Shown here: piece after piece, positions 16,340-27,382 of the stretch | Position numbering within the stretch: position 1 is the first letter of the stretch | Layout of the letters: every line of letters begins with the position of its first letter | IMG/VR virus record: IMGVR_UViG_3300046787_000188 | Location: 1 to 40,657 of that record | DNA: 40,657 bases | Strand: one strand, 5' to 3' | From: a virus | Program-made: the position numbers and the translations under genes | Notes under the pieces: model-generated | What the model saw: the letters and a program-made list of their open reading frames with translations, nothing else | What the model was told of the DNA's origin: nothing | The model's database searches: none

Positions 16340-16449
16340 TTAAATCTCCTTTTTGTTAAGCAGGATGGTGAATGTATCAAACTTTTTATGTTTTTTCTCT
16401 AGGGGTTTTCCCTGTGTTGCTGATTTTGTTTTTGATGTAGTCTCGCAGC
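16340..16449. promoter_or_regulatory. Divergent intergenic region between the two early blocks
   Basis: About 110 bases separate the 5' ends of the minus and plus early blocks, so promoters for both should lie here. The plus strand shows TTGTTA and, 16 bases on, TATCAA (weak match). The minus strand shows TTGATA without a good partner. A short AGGG/CCCT dyad is present near 16403-16415. No strong consensus promoter was seen, so phage- or host-specific control is possible. Confidence 0.35.
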
Positions 16450-23682: not shown

Positions 23683-24039
23683 ATGAACTACGGTGAATTT
23701 TTGTTAAGTTTGATGCACTCGTCAACAAACACACAGATCCTGCACAGACAGACAAAGAGCTTTGCAGAGCATATGGCTTTGGGTGAGTTCTATGAAGCCA
23801 TCATCCCATTGGTAGACTCTCTTACAGAGGCTATTCAGGGCTTGGAGGGTGAGATCATTGACTACCCTGTGGACTACTATGGCCCAGCATCTAGTGGCTT
23901 AGAGGAACTGTCTTCCCTCAAAGAGTATGTTTCTGAAGAACGCAAGGGTTTGCCACAGAACAGTGAAATCCAAAACGTGGTTGACGAGATTGCCGCTTTG
24001 ATTGACAGTACTTTGTACAAATTGCGTTTTCTGAAGTAA
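23683..24039 (+). CDS. Four-helix ferritin-like small protein (DUF5856-like)
   Basis: A 118-residue protein starting MNYGEFLLSLMHSSTNTQIL. The pattern HSSTNTQILHRQTKSFAEHM, LGEFYEAIIPLVDSL, and a last helix (VVDEIAALIDSTLYKLRFL) is the Dps/ferritin-like DUF5856 type known from phages. Such proteins may store metals or coat DNA. It is the last gene of the plus early block, with GAAAGGTTTCAT before the ATG and a strong terminator 18 bases after the stop. Confidence 0.72.
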   Translation: MNYGEFLLSLMHSSTNTQILHRQTKSFAEHMALGEFYEAIIPLVDSLTEAIQGLEGEIIDYPVDYYGPASSGLEELSSLKEYVSEERKGLPQNSEIQNVVDEIAALIDSTLYKLRFLK

Positions 24040-24056: not shown

Positions 24057-24087
24057 AGGGTGTGGTCAACAGCTACACCCTTTTTTT
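24057..24087 (+). terminator. Rho-independent terminator of the plus early block
   Basis: Stem AGGGTGT (24057-24063) and ACACCCT (24075-24081) with an 11-base loop, followed by a run of seven T. It stands 18 bases after the stop of the ferritin-like gene, with no gene beyond on this strand until the late region. Confidence 0.88.
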
Positions 24088-24611
24088 CGCCTAACCAAAA
24101 ACATCAAATTTTTAAAATCTCTGGCAAAAATAATTGATGGCAACCGTGTTTTTTAAGGTGGTCAAAAAAAATTGGGGAGGGGGGTCTTTTCTCCAGAAAA
24201 TCACTGCTTAAAAATTAGGCATAATCGGAGATAATACCCCTTTCGGGATTATCTACCCCATTCACAGATTATCTCGGGCATAATCCGGCGATTATCTCAG
24301 CGATTATCTGACATAATCAAGCGAATCCTCATGCATGCATCGATGCACCCAGCAAGCCCCAGCAAGGCATGAAATCAGCCGCTTAAGCCACTTTTGAGCA
24401 AAGCATAGGCAAGCATACCCAGAAGCACTTAAGCCCCTCAAAACCCCCATTTTTTAACCCTCAAAAACACCCGTTCACGCTACCGCTTGCCTTGATCAAG
24501 CAAAGCAAGCAAACCCAGCAAGCCAAAAGGCAAGCAAACTATCAGCAAGCCTTGCCCCTAGCGTCAGACACTAAAAAAAGCAAAGCAAACCCAGCAAGGC
24601 AAAGCCCAGCA
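24088..24611. other. Non-coding region between converging terminators
   Basis: No believable gene on either strand. It contains the GATTATCT/ATAATC array, a perfect 12-base palindrome TGCATCGATGCA (24336-24347), and a C/A-rich plus strand full of AGCAAG elements. The position between two terminators facing each other keeps it free of transcription, as expected for an origin or a packaging site. Confidence 0.6.
24221..24318. repeat. Iteron-like array of GATTATCT and ATAATC
   Basis: GATTATCT occurs at 24247, 24267, 24290 and 24302, and its inverse AGATAAT at 24229. ATAATC occurs at 24221, 24280 and 24313. Adjacent units pair as dyads, for example ATAATC-CGGC-GATTATCT. The first inverted pair (24229-24254) can also fold as AGATAAT-A-CCC...GGG-ATTATCT. 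Repeats of one core in both directions suggest multiple binding sites for a phage initiator or regulator. Spacing is 20, 23 and 12 bases, not strictly regular. Confidence 0.7.
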
Positions 24612-24613
24612 AG
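24348..24613. repeat. CCCAGCAAG direct repeats in an AGCAAG-rich stretch
   Basis: CCCAGCAAG occurs at 24348, 24357, 24514, 24590 and 24605, with many partial copies (AAGCAAAGCAAGC, GGCAAGC) between. The same words reappear near 25708-25745 and 26230-26310. The strand bias is strong (A and C on the plus strand). It could be primase or helicase assembly sites, a packaging signal, or a Chi-like word. Confidence 0.6.
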
Positions 24614-24640
24614 GAAAAACAAAAAAGCCCCTAAGGGCTT
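24612..24640 (-). terminator. Rho-independent terminator of the GP88 block
   Basis: On the minus strand AAGCCC-TTAG-GGGCTT is followed by TTTTGTTTTT. The stem begins exactly at the stop codon of the 26-residue ORF. It faces the terminator at 24057 across the repeat region. Confidence 0.82.
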
Positions 24641-24719
24641 AGTGTTTGAGTTTTTGTCTCATTTCTTCAGCGATCAGCAAAAGCTTTGCACGTTCAATAA
24701 GGGCTAAGAGCTTATTCAT
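24639..24719 (-). CDS. Tiny coupled peptide, 26 aa
   Basis: Reads MNKLLALIERAKLLLIAEEM followed by six residues, one amphipathic helix. The ATG overlaps the GP88 stop (ATGA), and the TAA sits on the first base of the terminator stem. The coupling and exact fit before the terminator support it as a real gene. Function unknown. Confidence 0.5.
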   Translation of the reverse strand: MNKLLALIERAKLLLIAEEMRQKLKH

Positions 24720-25363
24720 GCTGCCACCAATCGGATAACTTTGCCCATTTTCTTGCCGTGCGCTGGGTAAGCAATTAGAGGGATTGACTTATCCCAGCAA
24801 GCCCTACACCCGGAACAATTGCCACCGTTGGCATAAGCTTCGCAAAGCTTGACACCCTCTGAAGCTTGAAAGCTTTCAGGATCAGGCCCAATGACGGAAC
24901 CGTGCAAACCGGGAATATATTCACCGATAACGCTATCAGAGGAAAAGCGAACCATTACATTGGGCAAGCTTTGCATTTCACGCAAGACAAGGGCAAATTT
25001 TGGGAATTTATGCATGCGAGTTGGCAACCAATGATTGCACCACGGTGTTCGGCGCATGACCTCTAACATTTTTTCAGCAAGACCCAATGAATACATATCG
25101 CCGGAATCAAACCAACGGAAATATCGGTCTTGATCCAACTCATTAACCATATCGTCAACCCATTCCATGCGCTGCCAATCTTCCCTATTTGACAATCTAG
25201 GGGCTTTCACGTTCGGATAGTTATAGTTACCCGTGGTTGCATAGCATCCCTTGCATGCGTCAACCAATACACCGGGAGAAGATAAAGAACCGGGACAAGT
25301 ATCTAGGGCCTGAAGAGACCATGAACGTGCATTTAATTTTGAGGTGTTAGATATTTTGATCAT
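24716..25363 (-). CDS. GP88-family protein (mycobacteriophage L5 gp88-like)
   Basis: A 215-residue protein. The family start is clear: residues 22-45 carry TCPGSLSSPGVLVDACKGCY with Cys23, Cys37 and Cys40. RWFDSGDMYSLGLAEKMLEV, PWCNHWLPTRMHKFPKFALV and NVMVRFSSDSVIGEY follow in the order of a TIM-barrel-like core. The end adds a second Cys cluster (CEAYANGGNCSGCRACWD). The GP88 family is common in phages but has no known activity. Its layout recalls radical-SAM-like phage proteins such as the Gp37/Gp68 type, though the Cys spacing (12 then 2) differs from the classic 3 and 2. A metal- or iron-sulfur-binding enzyme is a fair guess. Confidence 0.8.
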   Translation of the reverse strand: MIKISNTSKLNARSWSLQALDTCPGSLSSPGVLVDACKGCYATTGNYNYPNVKAPRLSNREDWQRMEWVDDMVNELDQDRYFRWFDSGDMYSLGLAEKMLEVMRRTPWCNHWLPTRMHKFPKFALVLREMQSLPNVMVRFSSDSVIGEYIPGLHGSVIGPDPESFQASEGVKLCEAYANGGNCSGCRACWDKSIPLIAYPAHGKKMGKVIRLVAA

Positions 25364-25385
25364 TACATTACCAATGGTTAAGTGT

Positions 25386-25673
25386 TTATTTAATGTGGAT
25401 AACCTGAAAATGGTTTTTCAAGAAATCAATTGGGTTATCAAAAAGGGGATCAAGTAAGCTTTTTGGCTTTGGTTGATCAACCCAGCGAATAGAATAAATG
25501 CGAGATTTTTCCCCGGTCAATTGGGCTTTTTCGTGGAAACGATCCCACAAAAGGGCCATTGTTTTCGTGGGCTTGCTTTTATCAAGGTTGCACTGGGTTT
25601 GCGCCCCTTTATGGGTTTTGTATCCCTTAGGATTGCCAACAATATTGTTGTTGCAGTCAAATATAAAAAACAT
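25386..25673 (-). CDS. Small protein, 95 aa, GP88 block
   Basis: Starts MFFIFDCNNNIVGNPKGYKT. The front looks like a short beta-strand unit (FFIFDCNNNIVGNPKGYKTH) followed by GAQTQCNLDKSKPTKTMALL, a pattern seen in small phage proteins that modify or sense host factors, but none was named. The ribosome site TGAGGGG lies five bases before the ATG and inside the stop of the 32-residue gene upstream. A DnaA-box 9-mer lies within its last codons. Confidence 0.65.
   Translation of the reverse strand: MFFIFDCNNNIVGNPKGYKTHKGAQTQCNLDKSKPTKTMALLWDRFHEKAQLTGEKSRIYSIRWVDQPKPKSLLDPLFDNPIDFLKNHFQVIHIK
25394..25402 (+). promoter_or_regulatory. DnaA-box 9-mer (TGTGGATAA)
   Basis: Perfect inverse of TTATCCACA. 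It is inside the 3' end of a minus-strand gene and so may be fortuitous, but three more lie at 26184-26755. Confidence 0.4.
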
Positions 25674-25682
25674 AAAAACCCC

Positions 25683-25781
25683 TCATTTTGTGAAAATGTC
25701 AAAGTAAGCAAGAGCAAGGCAAAGCAAGCAAAAGGCTAAACCCAGCGCTGTCAAAATGTCCAATAGTTTTTCGTTTTTCAT
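25683..25781 (-). CDS. Tiny membrane protein, 32 aa
   Basis: Reads MKNEKLLDILTALGLAFCLL, then CLALAYFDIFTK, a single hydrophobic helix with two Cys. GGGAG seven bases before the ATG lies inside the end of the upstream gene, and its stop forms part of the ribosome site of the next. Tight packing supports translation. A membrane partner for the block is possible. Confidence 0.55.
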   Translation of the reverse strand: MKNEKLLDILTALGLAFCLLCLALAYFDIFTK

Positions 25782-25784
25782 GGT

Positions 25785-26057
25785 TTAGTCTCCCAAGCGG
25801 TGAGCGTCACGCTCTGGATTGAAATCAGAGAGTGATTCTTCTAATTCATTTCTAAGCATTTCGGGGATCATCGCGTCCAATTGATCGATGTATTCCGGGT
25901 TAATGATTCGAATCACGTCGACGCCGTCAACGTAAATCCCGGTTATTTCTTGCTTATAAATTCCCTCATGATCAGCCCATATATCAGCCGTCACATAGAC
26001 AATTTCACCGTTAACAATGTGTTCGAATTCCACTTTATGATCCGCTTTGCTTTGCAT
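25785..26057 (-). CDS. First gene of the GP88 block, 90 aa
   Basis: Starts MQSKADHKVEFEHIVNGEIV, preceded by AAAGAGGTTAAAC. The first half is beta-rich (EIVYVTADIWADHEGIYKQE) with an acidic loop. The second is a helix (EYIDQLDAMIPEMLRNELEE) and an acidic tail. The protein is very acidic overall. Small acidic phage proteins of this kind often mimic nucleic acid or inhibit host factors, but this is only suggestive. No family recognised. Confidence 0.65.
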   Translation of the reverse strand: MQSKADHKVEFEHIVNGEIVYVTADIWADHEGIYKQEITGIYVDGVDVIRIINPEYIDQLDAMIPEMLRNELEESLSDFNPERDAHRLGD

Positions 26058-26126
26058 GTTTAACCTCTTTAGGTTGTTGTTGGTGTATGTTATTTTATGC
26101 GATTGTATAGGCTTTTCTATAGGTGT

Positions 26127-26140
26127 TTACCCTAGGTTAA
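26127..26140. promoter_or_regulatory. Operator-like dyad upstream of the GP88 block
   Basis: TTACCCTAGGTTAA is a 14-base dyad around CCTAGG with one mismatch pair. It lies 70-83 bases upstream of the first ATG of the minus-strand block, a normal place for an operator. No regulator is known. Confidence 0.35.
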
Positions 26141-26193: not shown

Positions 26194-26502
26194 ATGGGGA
26201 TAAGTAAGAGGGTTTCGATCCGGTGCAAAACAGGTCAAAAGCAAGGCAAAAAAGAAAAAGAAAAGAAAACCCCGATTCGTTCTCTTCCGCTCTACATAAG
26301 GGATAGAGCAAAGCAAAGACTAGCGTCAGGGTTTCCAGCGAATGACCTGATCAGGCATTACCAATCACTACAAAAACCAAAAGAGAGCGGGGCCTTGCCC
26401 GTATCCTTTTGCATAGCCTCTACAGAGGGAGAACATCATTCAGGCTACCCTACTAGCCACCCCCTGAGATACCCCCCTAGAATCGCGTTTAAATCGATTT
26501 AG
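26194..26502 (+). CDS. Possible small basic protein (weak call)
   Basis: A 102-codon frame starting MGISKRVSIRCKTGQKQGKK. The central part (PLYIRDRAKQRLASGFPAND followed by LIRHYQSLQKP) reads like a real helical protein. The end is unconvincing, and no ribosome site precedes the ATG. It may be a gene expressed from the control region, a decayed gene, or chance. Confidence 0.3.
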   Translation: MGISKRVSIRCKTGQKQGKKEKEKKTPIRSLPLYIRDRAKQRLASGFPANDLIRHYQSLQKPKESGALPVSFCIASTEGEHHSGYPTSHPLRYPPRIAFKSI

Positions 26503-26839: not shown

Positions 26840-27382
26840 ATGGATCACGAATGGACGCTTGCACATCCGTTGCATGATGTTGATGACATAGTTGATTTGG
26901 CTGACAATGTATTTGGTCAAGAAGCTGACGGCATGTTGGTTCGGGACAGGGCTGTGTTCCGCAAGAATGTGACATTGACTGCTACGCATCAATTGTTTGA
27001 CAAGGGCCGGGAGTTCTTGGCTGTTTGCCGTGGTGAGAGGTTTGTCAGTACCATGATGGGTGACAGTGCTGTTGACGCTTTATTGGGTTACTGCTGGTTT
27101 GACCGTGGTGGGTATACTACTTACTCAAACCAAGAGATCAGTAATGCAAAGTTTCACCATGTTGATTTAACTCTTCCTGTCCGCTACAGGGTTAAGTTAA
27201 TTAATGAGATGATTGATCAGCATATATTGTGGGCACATAGCTGGGGTATTCCGGTTATCTGTTCTACCAGTGTTCGTGCTGACCATACTGCTTTTATGAA
27301 GATTCATAAGAAGCGTGGATTTACTGTCAATGGTTCATATGCTTGGATTAAGACAGAAGACGGTATAAAGGGTTTGAAATGA
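26840..27382 (+). CDS. GNAT-like acyltransferase-fold protein
   Basis: A 180-residue protein starting MDHEWTLAHPLHDVDDIVDL. The end has the acetyltransferase pattern HSWGIPVICSTSVRADHTAF then KIHKKRGFTVNGSYAWIK, where the R-G-F turn and final strand are typical of GNAT proteins. A strand VDLTLPVRYRVKLINEMID precedes it. The P-loop-like acetyl-CoA motif (R/Q-x-x-G-x-G/A) is not clear, so substrate and activity are uncertain. Such genes often come first in the packaging block of podophages. AAAGGCAATGT precedes the start. Confidence 0.6.
   Translation: MDHEWTLAHPLHDVDDIVDLADNVFGQEADGMLVRDRAVFRKNVTLTATHQLFDKGREFLAVCRGERFVSTMMGDSAVDALLGYCWFDRGGYTTYSNQEISNAKFHHVDLTLPVRYRVKLINEMIDQHILWAHSWGIPVICSTSVRADHTAFMKIHKKRGFTVNGSYAWIKTEDGIKGLK

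Follow-up and report, generated by a model that had tools for sequence, protein, structure and literature searches.

The window, by which we mean the whole stretch of 40,657 nucleotides analysed here, is a 40.7-kb virus record whose structural block runs rightward. Judged by the terminase, the nearest genome in the phage collection is the uncultured podovirus MW202484 (84% identity), which also has a GP88 protein (78%). The original prediction had described five open frames in one tight minus-strand unit, and all five were recovered at 24639-26057. Read from 26057 to 24639 the genes comprise 90, 32, 95, 215 (GP88) and 26 codons and are spaced by 3-22 nt or overlap (Table 1). The supposed coupling of the tiny last peptide to GP88 is also borne out, as the GP88 stop (TGA) and the start of the 26-aa frame (ATG) overlap as ATGA at 24716-24719. 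By a counting method the dN/dS of the whole GP88 protein, window against relatives, is 0.02-0.04. For the 95-aa gene we obtained 0.07-0.18, for the relatives of the 90-aa gene 0.06-0.18 and for the 32-aa peptide about 0.14-0.55. Because of these values we regard the genes of the unit as coding.

Table 1. Features of the GP88 unit and of a related control element in the window.
Feature	Position	Strand	Remark
Terminator-like hairpin with T run	24625..24640	-	hairpins 3' of GP88 recur in relatives
26-aa peptide, ATGA overlap with the GP88 stop	24639..24719	-	window and L211 only
GP88 gene, 215 aa, PF17338 / phrog_1392; predicted radical-SAM-like enzyme	24716..25363	-	
C174-x8-C183-x2-C186-x2-C189 codons, predicted auxiliary cluster or Zn site	24797..24844	-	four Cys invariant in 94 sequences
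D86-S-G-D89 codons, end of strand 2, GGE position	25097..25108	-	D86 invariant; model strand 81-84
C23-x13-C37-x2-C40-Y41 codons, predicted [4Fe-4S] site	25244..25297	-	conservation
95-aa protein, no family	25386..25673	-	adjoins GP88 in nearly all relatives found
32-aa single-span membrane peptide, conserved tail YFDxxxK	25683..25781	-	
Acidic protein of 90 aa, encoded by the unit's first gene	25785..26057	-	relatives often elsewhere in the phage
ACCTAGGGTAAACACCTAT, probable promoter or operator part before the first gene	26119..26137	-	conservation in relatives
Copy related to it, core CAGGGAAAACCCCTA, ahead of the leftward operon that encodes the Sak annealing protein and MazG	16399..16417	-	

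To the left of the unit a plus-strand unit ends at 24039 and is followed by a hairpin at 24057-24081; the two units thus run towards each other. On the right-hand side, about 780 nt of intergenic DNA extend up to a plus-strand gene at 26840. The unit had been credited with a terminator of its own. A hairpin with a T run is indeed present downstream of the last gene, and its counterparts recur, since a strict hairpin with T run lies within 1.2 kb 3' of GP88 in 33 of 77 relatives, compared with 1 of 81 for the control region upstream. On statistics alone the terminator is weak, however, because the hairpin scan of the region returned 8 sites against 3.9 +/- 2.4 expected. The noncoding stretch between the converging units (24210-24310) carries four GATTATC together with inverted forms within about 100 nt; this motif occurs 10 times in the window with 3.3 expected and resembles a repeat-type binding site. 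Repeats of the AGCAAGGCAAAGC type are found in and around the GP88 unit at 24340-24620, 25698-25727 and 26240-26324.

An operator-like dyad had been noted as well. The sequence AACCTctttAGGTT (AACCTN4AGGTT) is present at 26062-26075 and is the single match in the window (0.08 expected), but it is found in only 1 of 82 relatives, and as an operator it was rejected for this lack of conservation. The sequence ACCTAGGGTAAACACCTAT recurs exactly upstream of the unit in the loci L003-L005, L079 and L080, and the GP88 protein of L079 is only 75% identical. Of 82 loci, 22 have its core upstream in sense orientation and 6 in antisense; downstream the number is 5, both strands counted. With one mismatch allowed, the core occurs twice in the window (0.01 expected), once ahead of the GP88 unit and once ahead of the Sak/MazG operon. 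Since a similar element precedes both, the GP88 unit is probably co-regulated with recombination genes, hence not self-contained, and we infer from the shared element that it is expressed early. The 19-nt elements before both leftward operons are candidates for a shared operator or promoter part. A sigma-70 scan of the region was uninformative (8 found, 6.1 expected).

Four perfect DnaA boxes (TTATCCACA) lie on the minus strand at 25394, 26184, 26725 and 26747. All perfect DnaA boxes of the window thereby fall within 1.4 kb, with 0.26 expected in the window. Taken over 82 related loci, 28 such boxes fall in the 1.6 kb upstream of GP88 and one falls downstream. It is possible, judging from these boxes, that the divergent intergenic region is a replication origin or a DnaA control site.

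We then consider whether the five genes belong together. According to the original prediction they form a self-contained cassette, for which a role in host takeover or defence was suggested. In most of the nearest relatives (L001-L007, L211) a relative of the 90-aa gene and a short membrane peptide lie upstream of GP88, the 95-aa gene is present in some only, and the gene 3' of GP88 is hardly ever the same one; in many cases it too overlaps GP88 by ATGA. A comparison of about 80 close relatives confines the 26-aa gene to the window and one contig (L211); 11 loci have the 95-aa gene, and members of the 90-aa family belong to 10 GP88 units but are located elsewhere in the phage more often. Iterated profile searches over 278 loci gave 2 instances of the 26-aa gene, 11 of the 95-aa gene, 43 of the 32-aa peptide and 46 of the 90-aa family, of which 33 lie in a different block and on the other strand. 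Distant GP88 genes have unrelated neighbours, and nearly all of the window's small genes are absent there; the commonest neighbour of distant GP88s (20 loci) is nuclease-like by eye. No matches to the 32-aa and 90-aa proteins were found in the named-phage collection, nor to the 90-aa protein in the viral scan. The PADLOC 2.0 defence models give no match for GP88 and two of its neighbours, and the 95-aa protein reaches E = 0.05 only.

A fixed five-gene cassette is thus rejected, as the neighbours are exchanged among close relatives and most of them are absent in distant ones. That the five genes act jointly, as one dedicated system for takeover or defence, could be read from the tight operon with its ATGA overlap and from the order 90-aa relative, membrane peptide, 95-aa gene and GP88, which is repeated in L003, L004 and L211. 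Yet each neighbour is exchanged among close relatives, only 2 loci have the 26-aa gene, hardly any of the neighbours is found beside distant GP88s, no PADLOC match falls below E = 0.05, and no partner is found throughout the family. We therefore regard such a system as highly improbable. GP88 is the constant part, and the remaining small genes are mostly interchangeable accessories.

The survey did, however, reveal one companion which recurs in the close clade, although no neighbour recurs across the GP88 family as a whole. In a composition-based test, 58 of 80 close loci have a one-span mini-peptide of 26-45 aa upstream of GP88 and in the same orientation; on the opposite strand, as a control, the count is 1 of 80. 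The peptide is present in 4 of 25 intermediate and in 8 of 134 distant loci. All these locus sets were picked by GP88 presence, and the counts apply to loci with GP88. The membrane peptide is therefore a frequent operon companion of GP88 in one phage clade. Peptides of 26-34 aa with one span and the tail YFD[VI]x[VIT]K form a family comprising the window's peptide, those of L008-L049 and others; they are unannotated except for 'yvrj' at the same position in MW202484. One could imagine that GP88 and the peptide are a functional pair, the peptide anchoring GP88 or being its target, and the strand bias in the close loci and the conserved YFDxxxK tail are in line with this idea. The low counts in intermediate and distant loci and the variable spacing between the two genes (about 100 to 1000 nt) argue against it; a common operon suffices as explanation, and the loci were sampled by GP88 presence. 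Thus, we consider a functional pair improbable.

GP88 itself scores 103.5 bits (E = 2e-29) against PF17338, whose gathering cut-off is 24.4 bits, and is a member of this family, which neighbours the family DUF7227 (PF23872), by score. It also belongs to PHROG 1392. Both entries are annotated as unknown function, NCBIfam gives no function either, and the radical-SAM-like reading developed below is new from this analysis. A literature search for phage GP88 returned no function, the name being swamped by progranulin. The family is large: each of two viral-contig scans yielded at least about 600 stretches, of which almost every one is a relative, and GP88 is present in archaeal viruses too. We aligned 94 relatives from viral and prokaryote contigs, down to 26% identity. 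Never varying are C37, C40, Y41, A42, R83, D86, P114, T115, N135, R139, S141, C174, C183, C186, C189 and Y199; G88 and D89 are kept in at least 90% of the sequences. The two cysteine clusters which had been pointed out are thus both real and conserved in alignments of 46 to 94 sequences. In total seven cysteines are conserved, as C-x13-C-x2-C and C-x8-C-x2-C-x2-C. The 94-sequence alignment misplaces C23 in one clade and therefore a pattern check was used for the spacing; of the 46 sequences in the first alignment 45 show C-x13-C-x2-C, and 59 of the 59 distant loci listed do so too. The C-terminal motif is as fixed as the N-terminal one, with a single x9 exception.

A model built from the 94 sequences (pLDDT 89.6, pTM 0.88) gives a confident predicted fold, a partial beta/alpha barrel. 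The barrel-like layout of the original prediction thereby reappears in a predicted radical-SAM-like fold with a plausible metal site. Among the 1000 best candidates aligned with VIA-align, ranks 1 to 15 are all radical SAM enzymes: QueE (Z 6.3), lysine aminomutase (5.8) and EpeE (5.6) lead, and NifB, viperin, BlsE, PqqE, BtrN and anSME are among the others. The first fold of another kind follows at rank 16 (Z 4.5). As Z values of at most 6.3 are within the range which common and unrelated barrels reach, we take these matches as support, short of proof. With an earlier model, 11 of the 12 top matches were radical SAM enzymes. Foldseek against the PDB gave nothing at E<=0.001, and a PDB sequence search with GP88 and with the profiles gave no match. 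In BFVD the fold neighbours include Gp37/Gp68-like proteins (probability 1.00), followed at weak scores by QueE and Radical_SAM proteins; GP88 proteins of archaeal viruses rank among the top matches.

Radical SAM enzymes typically have a canonical CX3CX2C cluster motif and a GGE motif after strand 2. In the GP88 model a strand at 12-15 is followed by C23, C37 and C40, that is, three cysteines after the first barrel strand, in the spacing C-x13-C-x2-C instead of CX3CX2C. The invariant or nearly invariant polar residues R83, D86, G88, D89, T115, N135, R139 and S141 lie at or just after predicted strands. GGE is absent after strand 2 and D-S-G-D is found there instead; going by the predicted strand order, D-S-G-D would occupy the place of GGE, and R-x-S would end the strand 136-141. 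Because neither CX3CX2C nor GGE is present, we do not file GP88 as a canonical radical SAM enzyme. As QueE and other accepted members depart from CX3CX2C too, we file it as radical-SAM-like. By its anatomy GP88 would most likely work like a radical SAM enzyme.

QueE (7-carboxy-7-deazaguanine synthase), the best structural match, shows that a known radical SAM enzyme can have an extended first loop, CX14CX2C, and a core reduced to the minimum (PMC4389238). It shares with GP88 the long first cysteine loop and, judging from the predicted fold, the small core. It differs in that no Cys4 site is reported (PMC4389238), in its conserved residues and in its profile: neither GP88 (hhalign 0.1%) nor DUF5131 could be linked to QueE by profile comparison.

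The similarity to DUF5131, the phage Gp37/Gp68 family (PF07505), is closer to hand. Run over bacterial genomes, the PF17338 model also matches DUF5131 genes (E 9e-7 to 6e-4); several of these matches exceed PF17338's own cut-off, and the same loci match DUF5131. With hhalign GP88 aligns to DUF5131 (89%, E=2e-6), CxxCYA falling on CxxCYA. The two have this motif, the strand order, the profile similarity and the association with phages in common. One DUF5131 protein in turn matches TIGR04471 (rSAM_mob_pairA, radical SAM mobile pair protein A) with 9e-26, which is under the equivalog cut-off of that model. The chain from GP88 over DUF5131 to TIGR04471 is an independent, sequence-based route to the radical SAM superfamily. 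A search of the window at E<=0.001 and hmmscan at E<=1 both gave no DUF5131 match; the relation between GP88 and DUF5131 is one of profile to profile only. DUF5131 further has C-x6-C-x2-C and no C-terminal Cys4 site, whereas GP88 has C-x13-C-x2-C and the Cys4. TcmP (TIGR04474), the usual neighbour of DUF5131, is found beside it in 8 of 8 loci tested and in 0 of 31 GP88 phage records. As score, cysteine spacing and TcmP partner all differ, we do not file GP88 as DUF5131.

The earlier hint at a metal or iron-sulfur enzyme is strengthened by the invariant cysteines, the predicted fold and this chain of profiles. The same cysteines could nevertheless serve a metal-binding protein, with zinc or a structural Fe-S cluster on a degenerate radical SAM scaffold, which binds nucleic acid or protein of host or phage without SAM chemistry. 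Clusters of the type C-x2-C-x2-C suit zinc too, the structural Z values are low, the spacing is non-canonical, SGD replaces GGE, and hmmscan finds no Pfam radical SAM match for GP88. On the other hand, the many invariant polar residues other than cysteine at strand ends fit a pocket for SAM and substrate, radical SAM enzymes occupy the top 15 structural matches, and dN/dS is near 0.03 across the entire protein. We hold the metal-binding protein for rather unlikely, and favour as probable that GP88 is a compact radical SAM-type phage enzyme with a second, Cys4 metal site, encoded in an early phage operon.

We suggest that such an enzyme would work as follows. A promoter with the conserved 19-bp element, which in similar form precedes the recombination operon, would drive early expression; the small membrane peptide would be a frequent operon companion in the clade and the other small genes interchangeable accessories. 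C23, C37 and C40 would hold a [4Fe-4S] cluster, which could bind SAM (S-adenosylmethionine) aided by the D-S-G-D and R-x-S motifs. A further Fe-S cluster, or else zinc, would be bound by C174, C183, C186 and C189. Upon reduction a 5'-deoxyadenosyl radical would be set free and modify one substrate. From the context this is most likely a nucleotide, a nucleic acid or a host protein, altered early in infection. The phages concerned infect very different hosts and share no recurring enzyme partner, and GP88 is found in archaeal viruses as well; the substrate is therefore probably universal in cells. More tentatively, GP88 might be an undescribed branch of the radical SAM enzymes with two metal clusters, spread over phages of very different bacteria and archaeal viruses and acting by a modification at the time of infection; we consider this plausible rather than likely.

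Placed among radical SAM enzymes, GP88 would have a named cofactor, seven predicted ligand residues and assays that address it directly, and a large viral protein family thereby becomes testable. DUF5131, GP88 and probably DUF7227 could then be grouped as one radical-SAM-like lineage of viruses and mobile elements. In the eight DUF5131 loci tested, which are from the set L223-L252, the DUF5131 gene directly adjoins the TcmP gene, and one TcmP of this set carries a GMT-like winged-helix domain.
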